A stretch of DNA of 64,000 nt from assembly GCF_023276435.1 (NCBI RefSeq), contig NZ_JALLPO010000042.1, positions 1-64,000 of the forward strand, written 5' to 3'. The stretch is from Sphaerisporangium perillae. Its GTDB lineage: Bacteria > Actinomycetota > Actinomycetes > Streptosporangiales > Streptosporangiaceae. Position 1 is the first letter of the stretch, and every line of letters begins with the position of its first letter. The notes beneath the pieces were generated by a model. The model searched no databases, was not told the DNA's origin, and was given only the letters and a program-made list of their open reading frames with translations. The position numbers and the translations under genes were made by a program. Positions 40,618 to 58,199 of the stretch are shown piece after piece.

Positions 40618-40628
40618 CGGCAGGGTAG

Positions 40629-40702
40629 TAGCGGAGGCCGGACTTGAACCGGCGACACAGCGATTATGAGCCGCTTGCTCTGCCTGACTGAGCTACTCCG
40701 CC
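40629..40702 (-). tRNA. tRNA-Met (CAT)
   Basis: A full cloverleaf can be written on the minus strand: acceptor GGCGGAG/CTCCGCT, D arm GCTC/GAGC, anticodon loop CTCATAA with anticodon CAT, and T arm GCCGG-TTCAAGT-CCGGC. Length is 74 nt with no encoded CCA. The sequence has the elongator form. It lies between tRNA-Thr and rpmG. Confidence 0.95.
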
Positions 40703-40884
40703 TCAGGACCGGCGAACTCGCCAGCCTCGATGAGGATACCCGACCTGTACGACGATCGCGCACGCCCATCGCGTGCCCGATCTGGGGCAGGCGCTCCCAG
40801 TATGCCTGATCACTGGGCCCCTACACTTCCCCTATTTCGAGCGACCGGTGAGCTCGGCCTGGTATCCACAAGCGAAAAGCCCCA

Positions 40885-40898
40885 CCCGGAATTCCGGG
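40885..40898 (-). terminator. hairpin after tRNA-Thr
   Basis: CCCGGAATTCCGGG is a perfect 14-bp palindrome; on the minus strand it is followed by TGGGGCTTTTC. It lies about 20 bp downstream of tRNA-Thr, consistent with an intrinsic terminator or processing signal. Confidence 0.55.
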
Positions 40899-40918
40899 AG
40901 AGGGCGTTTACGCTGTCG

Positions 40919-40991
40919 AGCCCCTTTACGGAATCGAACCGTAGACCTTCTCCTTACCATGGAGACGCTCTGCCGACTGAGCTAAAGGGGC
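40919..40991 (-). tRNA. tRNA-Thr (GGT)
   Basis: On the minus strand: acceptor GCCCCTT/AAGGGGC, D arm GCTC/GAGC, anticodon stem TCTCC/GGAGA with loop ATGGTAA giving anticodon GGT, and T arm TACGG-TTCGATT-CCGTA. Length is 73 nt without CCA. The order tRNA-Thr, tRNA-Met, rpmG, hadA, hadB is that of other actinobacteria. Confidence 0.95.
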
Positions 40992-52399: not shown

Positions 52400-52927
52400 T
52401 CAGTCACCTGCGACGGTCCGCAGCCATCTGCCGGCTTCCCCCGGAGTGCCGAAACGAATGACCCGCAACGCACCGAAACGAGGATCCAGGGAACGCCGGC
52501 CGATTTCGGCGCGACGGGCCGCGTGCTGGGACCATGCCCACCACGCGGGGTGATCTCGGCGGAACCAGTTCGCCAATGTCTCCCGGTTGCCGCCGAAGAC
52601 GCGCTCGCGCAGCAGCGTCCTGCGCAGCGATCGTCGCAGGACCCGGGGCATGATGACCCGCTTGGGATAGTCCAGCCACACCACCGTGTCGGCGTGTTCC
52701 CACAGCAGGTCGCGGACTTCGGGGTAGCCCAACGAGTCGAATATCCAGCTCGGCGAGGAGACGACCCGCGCCACCTTGACGGAGAAATCCTCATCCACGG
52801 CCCAGCCGGGTCCGGTGAAGTAGAACGCGTCCATCTCGTGATAGGGCAGCGCGAGTCTCTTGCTCAACGTCCGCGCCATCGTGGATTTCCCCGCTCCGGT
52901 GATACCGACGACGAGGATGCGCTGCAT
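52400..52927 (-). CDS. P-loop NTPase/kinase of the adenylate-kinase-like (topology modulation) type
   Basis: About 175 residues. Walker A GITGAGKST is near residue 8 and the substrate-side segments HEMDAFYFTGPGW and WIFDSLGYPEVRDLLWE follow, as in FlaR/topology-modulation kinases. An Arg-rich lid (VLRRSLRRTLLRERVFG) is present. ATG 52927 is chosen, with ATG 52948 possible. It starts 72 bp after the RNA-repair protein gene on the same strand, so it may be a third member of that operon. Substrate unknown. Confidence 0.8.
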   Translation of the reverse strand: MQRILVVGITGAGKSTMARTLSKRLALPYHEMDAFYFTGPGWAVDEDFSVKVARVVSSPSWIFDSLGYPEVRDLLWEHADTVVWLDYPKRVIMPRVLRRSLRRTLLRERVFGGNRETLANWFRRDHPAWWAWSQHAARRAEIGRRSLDPRFGALRVIRFGTPGEAGRWLRTVAGD

Positions 52928-52999
52928 GCGCGCAGGATACGCGGACATCCCACCACGACCGGTACTGCCCGCGAACCGGTGGAAGCCCTTTGGGCGCAT

Positions 53000-55900
53000 T
53001 CACACGGACCGTAGCGTCGGCACCTCGCCGCACTCGGCCCACTCGACACCGGTGCCGCGCAGGCCCGCGGCCCATGGTCCGACGGTCTCGGCGAGCCGGG
53101 CCGCGTCCGGCGGCGTACGACCGAGCCCTACCGCGAACCGCGCCGAATCCGGCCCGATCTCGAACGGCCGGGGCCACGCGTGCGCACCCCGCGTCCCCGC
53201 GCGTTCCAGGGCGGTGAGCAGCGCGCGCATCCGGCCGCGGACGCGGCCCAGCGTCACACCGAACTCCTCGCCCCGCCCCGCTCGCACGGTCACGACGGCC
53301 CACGCCGCATGACGCCGGTGCAACGGGGGCGCCGACAGCAGCTCGGGCCGGGGATCCCGGCCGGTCTCCGCCGCGGCCTCCACGATCTCCCAGGCGCGAT
53401 AAAGCTCCTGCGTCAGGAGATCTCGCCCGCTGATGCCGACCTGCTCGCTGCACAGGCGGATCGGAGCCGTAGGGGTCATGATCTGCACCACCGCGTCCGA
53501 GGTCCCGCCCGGCAGGCCCTCCTGTCCGGGTAGGGCGACATCCGGGCGCAGCGCGATCGGCTCACGCCAGTCCCATGCGGCCCACCCGCCGAAGAAGTGC
53601 CGGAGCAGGTCGACGAGCGGGAGGTCCCCGGCATCGCGCACCGTCCGTGCCACGAGGACGGTCCAGGCCAGACCCGGCAACCCGCCGAACGGAGCCGAGT
53701 CCAGCCCCCGCGCCTTCGCCCACGCCTTCACTTCCCGGGCCAGCCCGGCGAAGCCGACACGGCTCTCGCCGACCGCCTCGAGCAGCGCGTCCGCGTCGCT
53801 GACCGCGCTCAGTGCGATCGCCGACGACTCTCCAAGCTCGGTACGGCGGGACACGGCCTCGGTGGGCGCGACGCTCCCGGTCGCCACGACGACCAGGTCG
53901 ACGTCGAGATCGTCGACGCGCAGCCGCAGCCCGGGCACCCGGGCGCCGACCACACGCCTCACCCCGGTGGCCTCCGGCAGCACCGTCTTGACCCGCGCCT
54001 CGACGTCCGCGATGTCGGCCGCCCCCGGCAGCGCCACCACCAGGTCCAGGTCCGTACCGTGCAGCGCGCAGCCGAGGCGTCGCGACCCGGCCACGTGGAC
54101 CACACCCTGCGCCATCGAACCGCGCAGCCGCTCCACGACCCGTTGCGCCCACGCGACCCTGGACCGCTCCCCCGCCTCAGGATCGCGCCAGGAGCGCCGC
54201 TCCGCTCCCGGCGCGTTTCCAGGACGTGTTTCCGCGACGTTCCCGTGGCCCGTGCCGGGGGTGACCCCTGGGCGTCCCAGGTCCGGCACCTGGTCGTCGG
54301 GTGCGCCGGTCTCGTCGTCGAGCCGGCGCACCTCCCCGGTCCCCAAGGCGACGGTCAGCCGAGGCCGCATGGGCTCCGCACCCCTGCGTGACAGCACGAC
54401 GAGCTCGCCGACACGCGCGGACATGCCGCCGAGCCGTGCCGCGCAGTCGGCGACGAGGCGGCGCGGATCGCGCGTCCTTCCCAGACTCAGATGCGGGACG
54501 TAGCCCGCGGCGCCGCCCCGGCAGCGGGGGAATCCGCGCTCCAGCGCGCCGCGTAGCCCCGCCCACGGTTCCGACCCGGCCGCGGCCGGGTCGAGCCAGA
54601 CCACGGCGCCCTCACGATGAGGGAAAGCGTGGACGCCCTCAAGTCGCGCGGTGAACGGGACGGTCGCGGCCCCGGCGGCGGCCAGGATGGGCACCGCCTC
54701 CTCGAAGTCGGATTCCGGCACGAAACCGAACATCAGCGTGACGTGCGGCGGCCATCTGCGGGCCTTGGGGTCGTGCTCCTGGCGGATCTCCTGGATCCTC
54801 GGCCATAGCTCTCCAGGAGGGATCCAGACCACTGCCGTCCGTGCCGTGGGTCGCGCGTCGAGGGTGCCGGCGGCCCCGCGCCCGCTCCGGCTCTCACCCT
54901 CGCCCTCGCCCGTGAACTGGCCCGTACCTTCGCCCTGGCCTGCGCCACCGCCCTCGCCCTCGCCCTCGCCGATGGCGACGTCCACCATCACGCCGTAATG
55001 GTCCGATATGAACAGGCCGTCGGGGGTCGCCGGAGAGTCACCCCGCAGGACCGCGGTGGCCGCTCGCAGGCCGGGGCCGCGCAGCAGCACGCGATCGAGC
55101 CGGGAGGCGCGGCCGGAGAGCGAGGACAGCGCCGCCAGCGGATTGACCCGCGGGTCGAAGGTCACGGTCGGGTCCGAAGGGCCGTGCACCTCCGTCCAAG
55201 CGTCCCGCAGGCCGAGCACCCCGGCGGGCCCGCTACCGCCGTCGTTCAGGTCACCCAGCAGGATCACGTCCCCGTCCAGCCCGGTGAGCACCTCGGCGAG
55301 CCGGGTGAGCTCGGCTTCACGCCTGGCCTTACCGTTCTCGGAGTGATCACTGGTGAGATGCGTGACGGCCACCACGATCGGCCCGGCGGCGGACTCCACG
55401 GTGACGGCGGCGACGGATTTGTGCGGACCGAGGACATGCACGCCCGCCTCCCGCACGGGCAGGCGGCTGAGCAGCAGGAGCCCGCCGTCGTCGACATCCC
55501 GGCCCGCCGGGTCGGTGCTCAACGTGTATCCGGAGCGGACCCACCGGGACAACAGCAGCATGCTCAGCAGCTCGGCCTCGACCTCCTGCAGCGCGATGAC
55601 GTCCGCGTCCGCCTGTTCAAGGGCGTCCAGCAGCAGCGGCCTGCGCCGGGCGGTGTCGATTCGGTCGCTGTCGTAGCGATCCCACAGGGTGTTCCAGGTC
55701 AGCACGCGCAGACGGGCCGCCGTCGGCGCCACGCGCAGGCGGGCCGCCGTCGGCGCCCGCCCGGTCGGTACGTCTTCCGCGGGCTGCCAGCCCACGGCGG
55801 GATCCCACGCGAACGGTGTTCTGGCCGTGAAGAACGGCGCCCGGAGTCTGCGCGGACTTCGCACCCGGCTGGCCTGCGAGGAGTCGATGCGGTCCACGCC

Positions 55901-56101
55901 CGCCGACCGGTCCCAGACCACCTCGCCGTCCGCCTCCACGAACAGGATCCGATGCCAGGGGATGTCCCCTCCGGGTACGAAGGCGGGCAGCGGCACGCGC
56001 TTGGCCGCGGACTCGCGCACGTTGATCCCCAGGACGAACCGCGCGGGATCGAAGCGCGGGTCCCAGCGGACCCGGTGGTAGACCTCTTCACTCGTCCGCA
56101 T
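53000..56101 (-). CDS. multidomain RNA-repair protein: MJ1316/DUF504, EEP phosphatase, 2H phosphoesterase, poly(A)-polymerase-like nucleotidyltransferase
   Basis: A 1033-residue cytoplasmic protein with four domains. Residues 1-75 match MJ1316/DUF504, predicted to recognise RNA cyclic ends ([26 protein letters not shown]). Residues 130-378 are an endonuclease/exonuclease/phosphatase domain with TWNTLW, LQEVEAE, GDLND (283-287) and SDHYG (366-370). Residues 420-590 are a 2H phosphoesterase with HVT (453) and HLS (537). Residues 645-1000 are a nucleotidyltransferase with GS (672), D684, D686 and D735, and eukaryotic poly(A)-polymerase-like segments GLPGLAW and [10 protein letters not shown] Gly/Glu linker (378-410) and a duplicated APTAARLRV are low-complexity. 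It starts 2 bp after the ligase gene. Confidence 0.9.
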
Positions 56102-56103
56102 GC

Positions 56104-57948
56104 TCAGCCTTCCTCGCCGTCCAGAGACCCGGCGACGTCACGGACGTCCCCCTCCGATCCGATGTACCACGTGCGGTGCGCCTCTCCCGGATAGGGCGGG
56201 GAGAAGCGGCGGAGCTGGGCCGAGAGCACCTCCGCCGGCACCGGGTGCGCGCGGCCGCCGTTACGCCTGGCCAGCACGTCACCGGGGACCAGCATCACCG
56301 CGTGCGTCGTCAGCGCGTCACGGCGGCCGGCCACGGCGTGCACCAGCGAACGCTGGTGCCGGTTCAGGGCCGTGGCGTCCCAGACGACCGTCCCGCCACC
56401 GGCCAAGAGCGCGTCGAGCCGGTGCAGGCCCTCGCGGAGTACCGCCGGATTGGCCCGCTGGTCCGACCGCGATCCACGGGTCTGGCGCAGGTCGTCGAGC
56501 GACACGACGGCGTCGACGCCCGGAAGGGCACGGGCGAAGGTGCTCTTCCCGCTGCCGGACGGCCCGACCATGATGACGAGCCGGGGAAACCGGCCCGATC
56601 GCCACCGCCGGCTCAGCGCCAGAGCCTCCTCGACCGTGGCGATCCGGCCCAGCGCGTACGCCTCCCGGGCCTCGGCCCAGCACCGATCCGCCACCTGGGG
56701 ATCGCACCCGCCGAGCGCCCGGCACAGGCCTGCGCGCAGCGGCTCCAGTGGCGCCTCGCCGAGCAGGCAGGCCTCCTCGGCGTGGAGTTCAGACCAGTCG
56801 ACCTGCTCGCCCGCCTCGGCGGCGGCTCCGGCATCGCCGTCGGCGCTTCCGCCCCTGGCCAGGACCGCGGCGGCGACCGCATGCAGGACGCCCACGTCGG
56901 TCGCTGCGGCGAGCCGTACCAGACCGGCCCTGCGCGCCTCGTCAGGGAACGGGCGGTGCAGGCGGGCGGACAATTCGGCCAGATCGGCGACCCGCCGCGC
57001 CAGGGGCATGCCGAGGGGCGCCACCAATCGGGGCGCCAGCCAGGAGCGGTGCGTACCGTGGAACAAGGCCCCCAGCACCCCCGCCAGCCGGGCATCCCCG
57101 GACCGGCCCAGCAGATCGAGCCGAGCGGAGACCTCGGCCACGGCCGCTTCGACCCGTTCGACGACCGCGGGCTCCGGTACGGCGGGCCCGCGCAAGCGCT
57201 CGGGCGCGGCGGCCCCGCGCAGACTCTCCAGTACGGCGGGCCAGCGCAGGTCGCCACTGGCCAGGCCTACCGCGGCGAGGAGCGATGGCACGTCTGCGCC
57301 GCCGCCCGAACGCACCTGCCACAGGGCGGCGGCAGGGCTCAGTTCGTTCTCGACGACGCGTGCGAGCATCCAGTGCTCATCGGTTCGCACGTGCCCAGGC
57401 CGTACCCATTTGGCCACGCGGTGAGCGAACTCCTCGTGCTGGAACCCCTCGACGGTCCGCACGACGTAGCCCTCGTGCCGAGCGGTGTCCAGGCGCAGCG
57501 CCCTGAGCACCCGCTCGTCGAAGGTGCCGCGCCACAGCACCCGCGGGACCGGGATTCCCAGCCGCCGGGTGAAGCGCACGGTCTGGTCCCAGTCCAGGCA
57601 GAAGTCGCCGTTCCAGACAGAGAAGGCGTAGAACCAGCCCTCCAGGTCCCGGTAGGCGATCGAGTGCCGGGCGTAGAGGTTCTCCCCGCACACCCGCCCG
57701 CCCGGCGGAATCGCCTTGGCGATCCTGCCGTGCAGGGCCTTGACCCATGCGCGGGACGGATGATGCGCCGAGTCCAGCGAACGGGCGTGCAACCCGTCCG
57801 GGTACATGGTCGTGTTCTCCCCGTCCAGCTTCTCGGTGATGACGACCTCCCGGCCCGCCAGCCCCGACAGGCCGCGGGCACGCACATCGTCCGAGGCCGC
57901 CCCCGGCGACCAGGGCAGGTGGGGAGTGCGAGGGTAGTGGACTCGCAT
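56104..57948 (-). CDS. RNA ligase-polynucleotide kinase fusion
   Basis: A 614-residue protein. The N-terminal ligase has the adenylation motif [10 protein letters not shown] with Lys40, motif III-like [10 protein letters not shown], motif IV HEGYVVR (159-164) and motif V RVAKWVR (177-183). A helical region of about 230 residues follows. Residues 455-614 are a P-loop kinase with GPSGSGKST (462-470) and [14 protein letters not shown], like 5'-polynucleotide kinases. ATG 57948 has GGGAG six bases upstream; an in-frame start at 58104 has no site. Two bases separate it from the next repair gene. The pair could heal and seal broken RNA; tRNA is a likely but unproven substrate. Confidence 0.92.
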
Positions 57949-58199
57949 GATCTGCTCCCGGTGACGATGTGCGTCCGGCGACTGTATGAGACACGGAAGG
58001 AGCGAATCCACCGAATAACCCCGGCCCCGCGCCGCCTGTTCACCCGAGGTTGGCGTACTGGTGCCGATGAAAGACACCCCCACCGCGACGAAGGACGACG
58101 ACAAACGTCGCCCAACCCGCCCAGCACCACGAGGTCATCACCACGACGACATCAGCACCACCGAGGGCGCCGGCACCACGAGGACGTCAGTGCCGTCGA

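Follow-up and report, generated by a model that had tools for sequence, protein, structure and literature searches.

The window analysed here, 64,000 nucleotides of Sphaerisporangium perillae DNA (contig NZ_JALLPO010000042.1, positions 1 to 64,000), carries two adjacent genes on its minus strand, one for a predicted RNA ligase-kinase (P0002) and one for a four-domain protein (P0001), and the question that they raise is what two such proteins would do together. A sequence-only reading had taken them for an RNA-repair operon. Our analysis indicates that the gene pair, which is carried by filamentous soil bacteria, is real and conserved and that it represents a known kind of system, RNA repair with an ATP-dependent ligase at its centre, arranged in a new way; on balance, the two genes probably make up a system that would heal, extend and seal RNA ends. 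To the earlier reading the analysis adds a degenerate HD domain in P0002, a changed pocket in the poly(A) polymerase (PAP)-type region of P0001 and a conserved promoter-like element upstream of the pair (Table 1).

Architecture of the gene pair

The two genes were said to lie 2 bp apart, and so they do: both open reading frames are uninterrupted, and the TGA stop codon of P0002 is followed by two bases and then by the ATG of P0001. All six domains named earlier came back from a Pfam search, each above its gathering cut-off, and the key residues claimed for them proved to be conserved across the aligned sequences (46 for P0002 and 47 for P0001), the catalytic residues checked in the MJ1316, EEP, PAP, ligase and kinase domains being invariant or nearly so. 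The AlphaFold models were rated good, with a mean pLDDT of 85.1 and a pTM of 0.88 for P0002, and of 84.4 and 0.66 for P0001. The RNA-repair reading is backed by profile matches, by the structure models, by the conservation of active sites and by co-occurrence, but it described the first protein incompletely, having missed its degenerate HD domain. The domains, the conservation of active sites, the homology and decay of the HD domain, the linkage, the co-occurrence and the promoter-like element are all shown by comparison.

Table 1. Features of the window, with positions on the forward strand
Feature	Position	Strand	Basis
P0002, 614 residues: RNA ligase - degenerate HD - 5'-OH polynucleotide kinase	56104..57948	-	open reading frame, Pfam, alignment, structure model
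RNA ligase nucleotidyltransferase domain, residues 33-182	57403..57852	-	PF09414 (RNA_ligase) 2e-31
HD phosphoesterase domain, degenerate and without its active site, about residues 196-452	56593..57363	-	hhalign vs HD-Pnk, residue loss
Polynucleotide 5' kinase domain, residues 457-585	56194..56580	-	PF13671 (AAA_33) 7.2e-22
P0001, 1033 residues: four-domain end-healing/nucleotidyltransferase protein	53000..56101	-	open reading frame, Pfam, alignment, structure model
MJ1316 domain, residues 1-65	55907..56101	-	PF04457 1.8e-18
EEP domain, residues 134-368	54998..55702	-	PF03372 2.1e-19
2H phosphoesterase domain, residues 428-574, HVT at H453, HLS at H537	54380..54820	-	PF13563 5.2e-31
Eukaryotic-type poly(A) polymerase region, residues 665-980, with D684, D686, D735	53162..54109	-	phmmer, profile, Foldseek
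Conserved promoter-like element TATTCGGTGGATTCG-N15-ATACAGTCGCCGG	57975..58017	-	ends 26 bases before P0002 start codon
Small P-loop kinase	52400-52999	-	begins directly after four-domain gene
Two tRNA genes, Met and Thr	40628-40991	-	Rfam gathering scores

A degenerate HD domain in P0002

The linker between the ligase and kinase domains of P0002 aligns over its length with the corresponding HD region in four HD-Pnk proteins of Deinococcus at an hhalign probability of 97.2 (E 4.2e-11, 213 columns), against E values of 0.023 to 0.81 for the 13 controls (one reversed and 12 column-shuffled). By hhalign, therefore, P0002 shares the HD domain of HD-Pnk, but three residues of the HD motif are gone. 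We surveyed the motif in 71 actinomycete sequences, that of the window and those of 70 of the 75 loci with a linked ligase-kinase (see below), five cut or offset ones being left out. H108 of the motif is removed by a deletion, one of three consecutive histidines is replaced by leucine and the late aspartate is missing, each in 71/71 sequences; what is left of the motif is the aspartate of the doublet in 7/71 and two histidine positions that still hold histidine in 54/71 and 44/71. We take these lost and kept residues to be metal ligands. None of the Pfam HD models is among the matches of the 46 P0002-family members. The region is helical in the structure model of P0002, and a Foldseek search with that model returned no HD fold among the best 50 of its 586 matches; since these 50 are all kinases or kinase-bearing enzymes, the search did not confirm the HD fold.

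It would be conceivable that the degenerate domain retains an unrecognised catalysis and that 3' healing was never handed over to another protein, and the histidines and doublet aspartates that persist in part of the family would fit this. We regard it as very improbable, however, given that three changes to the motif are found in every one of the 71 actinomycete sequences and that no Pfam HD model is matched by the 46 members.

The Deinococcus relatives retain the HD-motif residues lost in the actinomycetes, and in a Proteus mirabilis record, which has a separate ligase and HD-Pnk, the HD motifs look intact by eye. The 8 records in which P0001 has a match include none of these intact-HD plasmid records (four from Deinococcus and one from Proteus). 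The HD site thus appears to be lost where the four-domain partner is present, which is a correlation only, between five intact and 71 related degenerate sequences. The second gene may have taken over 3'-end healing from the HD domain.

Ligase and kinase domains and their Deinococcus relatives

The ligase motif residues checked, K40 included, are invariant in 46/46 sequences, with the exception of E39 (45/46), and K40 is expected to be the adenylated lysine. P0002 thereby has the nucleotidyltransferase motifs of a DRB0100-like ligase, for which ligase activity is predicted, and, as in HD-Pnk, a P-loop 5'-OH kinase with its catalytic residues, the activity of which is likewise predicted. The best Foldseek match of the P0002 model is the polynucleotide kinase of Clostridium thermocellum (4jt2, E 5.6e-6).

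Two Deinococcus proteins, an RNA ligase and a separate kinase, resemble P0002. The ligase of D. radiodurans plasmid MP1 (211 codons) is 55.6% identical to P0002 over about 204 residues, and the kinase has Pfam HD and AAA_33 matches in both of the two species scanned. Because the start of the MP1 ligase matches the cloning primer given in PMC1997131 and its catalytic lysine matches K40 of that study, we identify it with DRB0100. DRB0098 is reported there as a 5' kinase and K40 of DRB0100 as adenylated, with no ligation shown by DRB0100 (PMC1997131). In the Deinococcus operon DRB0100-DRB0099-DRB0098 (ligase, PARG, HD-Pnk), the PARG has been proposed to repair ADP-ribosylated ends (PMC11833690). 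Its ligase, HD and kinase regions align with P0002, but they lie on separate chains with an intact HD motif and with PARG between them, and the plasmid has no P0001 match, whereas the actinomycete protein is fused, its HD domain is degenerate and its partner is the four-domain protein.

Domains of P0001

The MJ1316 domain scores 67.4 bits against PF04457, well above the curated cut-off of 26.3, and is present in 47/47 members of the P0001 alignment; such domains are described as recognisers of RNA cyclic ends (PMC6514570). In the EEP domain, N137, E173, H248, D284, N286, D367 and H368 are invariant (n=47), so that P0001 has the conserved N, E, H, D, N, D and H of the family. The nearest solved relative of the domain is TDP2 (E 5e-9 with the profile of 47 sequences and 1e-9 by Foldseek). 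ANGEL2 is, we assume, also an EEP-type enzyme. It is described as hydrolysing RNA 2',3'-cyclic phosphates (PMC9525292). The 2H domain, recognised by Pfam in 42/47 members, has both HxT/S motifs in the protein of the window. Short free-standing MJ1316-2H proteins, read by eye, occur in four genomes of the class (L140, L154, L155 and L157), those with L154 and L155 being without a ligase-kinase match, and their existence supports the pairing of the two domains. Two Streptomyces plasmid records (L105 and L107) hold pieces matching the MJ1316 and 2H parts of P0001.

The C-terminal part resembles the polymerases that add poly(A) tails in animals and yeast. The Pfam model PAP_central matches P0001 at residues 788-911 (8.2e-10) and is found in 47/47 aligned members, and the separate Pfam models of the nucleotidyltransferase palm stay below their own cut-offs in P0001. 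With phmmer, about 315 residues align with eukaryotic PAPs (E 9.5e-20 for PAP gamma in the PDB); for the profile of the 47 sequences, the match to human PAP gamma has an E value of 2.6e-37, and Foldseek places the P0001 model on human PAP gamma 4lt6 at E 4.5e-19, over 437 columns of the 467-residue target. The palm, the central domain and some or all of the RNA-binding region of canonical eukaryotic PAPs (PAP alpha/gamma, Pap1) are thus aligned, with domain borders that we assume, and both the central domain and the catalytic aspartate triad are kept (D686 is replaced by asparagine in 1/47). Two loci that at first seemed to lack the PAP region (L077 and L081) contain it in their sequences, the tblastn match having ended early, and both belong to the 47 aligned members that PAP_central matches.

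Unlike the eukaryotic enzymes, this polymerase is bacterial, forms the C-terminal part of a four-domain chain, and differs at the pocket. D801 (45/47) and A803 (47/47) of P0001 align with Y224 and N226 of yeast Pap1, the numbering and nucleotide-contact role of which we presume, and the two pocket residues of the yeast enzyme are therefore absent. The likeness to eukaryotic PAPs claimed earlier is supported, but the label poly(A) is doubtful: as the two presumed contact residues differ, so is adenine specificity. The choice of nucleotide may have changed in the actinomycete polymerases. A plasmid protein of Calothrix brevissima (BAY66805, L102:7995-10970), 30% identical to P0001, has the same four domains in the same order but keeps the Y and N of the pocket, and it matches yeast PAP at 7.7e-38, compared with 1.5e-15 for P0001.

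Linkage and co-occurrence

Gene order in other actinomycetes, a survey of which the sequence-only reading had proposed, speaks for a linked pair: the two genes stand together in 75/79 loci and in 17/394 genomes of the class. With the domains recovered as well, neither of the two outcomes that would have refuted that reading came about. The loci come from a contig scan that gave 123 stretches and 89 relatives, of which the best 80 were kept as 79 loci, with record titles that we take to be those of actinomycete genera. In the 75, the ligase-kinase precedes the four-domain gene on the same strand (in a few, a contig end cuts off part of it). Counted up to the residue of the second protein at which the alignment begins, the gap between the genes is -20 to +20 bases in 72/75, a 1-base overlap being the commonest arrangement (38 loci); the exceptions are L035 (50), L081 (112) and L034, whose value is spurious because the matched stretch contains a stop. 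One locus without an upstream ligase-kinase (L071) starts at a contig edge, and a ligase-kinase is present in its genome.

Among the 394 genomes of the class survey, which include the genome of the window, P0002 (threshold E <= 1e-30) has a match in 17, MJ1316 in 19 and both in 17, and in all 17 the two matches are neighbours by coordinates; the two genomes with MJ1316 only have short MJ1316-2H proteins, read by eye. The Fisher value for this co-occurrence is 6.5e-28, which is only nominal because the genomes are related. Two of the 17 copies of P0002 are damaged, one by a stop (G726) and one by the absence of its middle (G741), which points to loss, or assembly error, in places. P0001 has matches in 10/396 genomes of the phylum; in seven of these the match is confined to the 2H region or its flank. 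Over 44 loci, the pairwise distances of P0001 are correlated with those of P0002 (r 0.85, 0/2000 permutations), as would be expected if the two proteins had descended together. No third conserved neighbour emerged from gene-model clusters over the loci: apart from the two genes and from frames antisense to the second gene (25 loci), no cluster extends to more than 16 loci. Ribosomal protein genes lie near the second gene in up to 14.

RNA repair, DNA repair or decay

Several observations weigh against the RNA-repair reading. The first 2H motif is HxN rather than HxT/S in 35/42 sequences with the domain, and the domain is absent from 5/47 aligned P0001 sequences; L087 and L091 also lack it by tblastn, and L085 stops after EEP. 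Matches to 2H were found in 14/14 genomes examined and are hence uninformative on whether a lost 2H is replaced. Three Streptomyces ISL strains (L021, L025 and L073) have the four-domain gene and, genome-wide, only weak kinase-like matches to P0002. Given these three genomes and the loss of 2H, not every repair step is obligatory. The Calothrix plasmid, which is predicted to be conjugative, has no P0002 match in its record. The D. radiodurans operon is radiation-induced and has been proposed to act in DNA repair, and the H81A and D82E mutants of DRB0098 kept 3'-phosphatase activity, contamination being suspected (PMC1997131); the activity of the intact HD domain is therefore itself a prediction.

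The radiation response of the Deinococcus operon, together with TDP2 as the closest relative of the EEP domain, makes DNA ends a possible substrate. The pair might serve to clean and seal the ends of DNA strands broken by oxidation or radiation, the EEP domain working as TDP2 does, and one paper title has HD-Pnk abetting resistance to ionizing radiation. Three of the domains, 2H, MJ1316 and PAP, indicate RNA 3' ends instead, 2',3'-cyclic phosphates require a 2'-OH, and the D. radiodurans plasmid that carries the radiation-induced operon is one without P0001, so that we consider DNA repair improbable.

The genomes with a four-domain gene and no clear P0002 bear on another explanation, in which P0001 would heal fragments and tail them for degradation, ligation being secondary. 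The Calothrix plasmid and the PAP-likeness of the polymerase over about 315 residues agree with it, whereas the adjacent ligase-kinase in nearly all loci and the departure of the pocket from yeast PAP do not, and tailing for decay seems to us an unlikely role. Sealing after healing and extension of RNA ends is the function that we favour.

Known systems show related combinations. Trl1, the tRNA ligase of yeast and plants, has ligase, kinase and 2H cyclic phosphodiesterase in one chain. The same three activities would work together here, but they are divided between two genes, and Trl1 has no EEP, MJ1316 or polymerase. In RNA-repair systems with RlaP, cyclic ends are opened by 2H enzymes, phosphatases act next and bases are put back by nucleotidyltransferases (PMC7824862). 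The actinomycete pair similarly joins a ligase with end-cleaning enzymes and a nucleotidyltransferase that could restore bases, but the latter is of PAP type, and the Pfam search with P0001, taken to E values of 1, gave no family named RlaP. Among the papers listed by our literature searches, no title or abstract start describes this pair, which Burroughs and Aravind 2016 may already list. A PADLOC search for defence systems gave no match for P0001 and weak matches only for the other two proteins queried. A phage or viral origin was rejected because neither P0001 nor P0004 has a match in phages and no relative was found in viral contigs (searched with two short patterns only).

Promoter-like element and surroundings

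Upstream of the ligase-kinase, the pattern [T/A]ATTCGnTGGATCCG-N14/15-CTACAGTGACCGG occurs in 40/71 loci, when up to 5 substitutions per half and a spacing of 14 or 15 are allowed and with a consensus drawn from the same upstream regions. Of these 40 elements, 35 sit 26-34 bases from the start, and 3/1380 random stretches downstream of the two genes (mostly coding) match as well. In the 9.3 Mb genome the core pattern has a single occurrence, at this operon, and in the three genomes without a ligase-kinase the 700 bases preceding the four-domain gene contain no match to the element. The element looks like an activator-assisted promoter.

A small kinase gene downstream of P0001 had been put forward as a third component. 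A tblastn search at E 1e-5 found no homologue of it in the 79 related loci (a few of these stop at or close to the gene), and it was rejected; its product gave a below-cut-off match to a model named 'DNA topology modulation protein'. At Rfam gathering scores the window holds no known RNA family besides the two tRNAs. The host genome also encodes KptA and RtcB family members. Its RtcB gene (L159:121-2238, minus strand) has an in-frame insert within the NCHHN motif which, judged by reading the sequence, looks like an intein.

Proposed mechanism and significance

From these comparisons we infer all of the reactions, that RNA is their substrate, the sequence of steps and the hand-over of 3' healing. 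MJ1316 would hold the 3' end of an RNA that terminates in a 2',3'-cyclic phosphate, and the 2H domain of P0001 would open the ring. The remaining phosphate would be removed by the EEP domain or by the cell's own KptA, an enzyme that removes 2'-phosphate (PMC9503650). Where damage has taken nucleotides away, the PAP-type nucleotidyltransferase could add one or a few to the 3'-OH; the kinase of P0002 would phosphorylate the 5'-OH and its ligase domain would seal the break via adenylated K40. P0002 itself may descend from a ligase plus HD-Pnk pair like DRB0100/DRB0098, the HD domain, a predicted 3'-phosphatase, having lost its active site and surviving as a scaffold, with the second gene taking over the healing of 3' ends.

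The fullest version of this model is complete gap-filling RNA repair, in which the ligase-kinase, after loss of its HD activity, was paired with a 3'-healing protein using a re-tooled eukaryotic-type PAP. We put it forward tentatively, as a rather doubtful extension. If it holds, such a system could repair RNAs that have lost a nucleotide to a nuclease, and would offer, in Streptomyces and relatives, a tractable system for the mending of RNAs with missing nucleotides. On this model, the degenerate HD domain predicts that 3' healing depends on the second gene here and not in Deinococcus, which would be a case of one healing enzyme displacing another within a repair operon. The polymerase would be a bacterial relative of the canonical eukaryotic PAP and may be useful for tracing the origin of that family.

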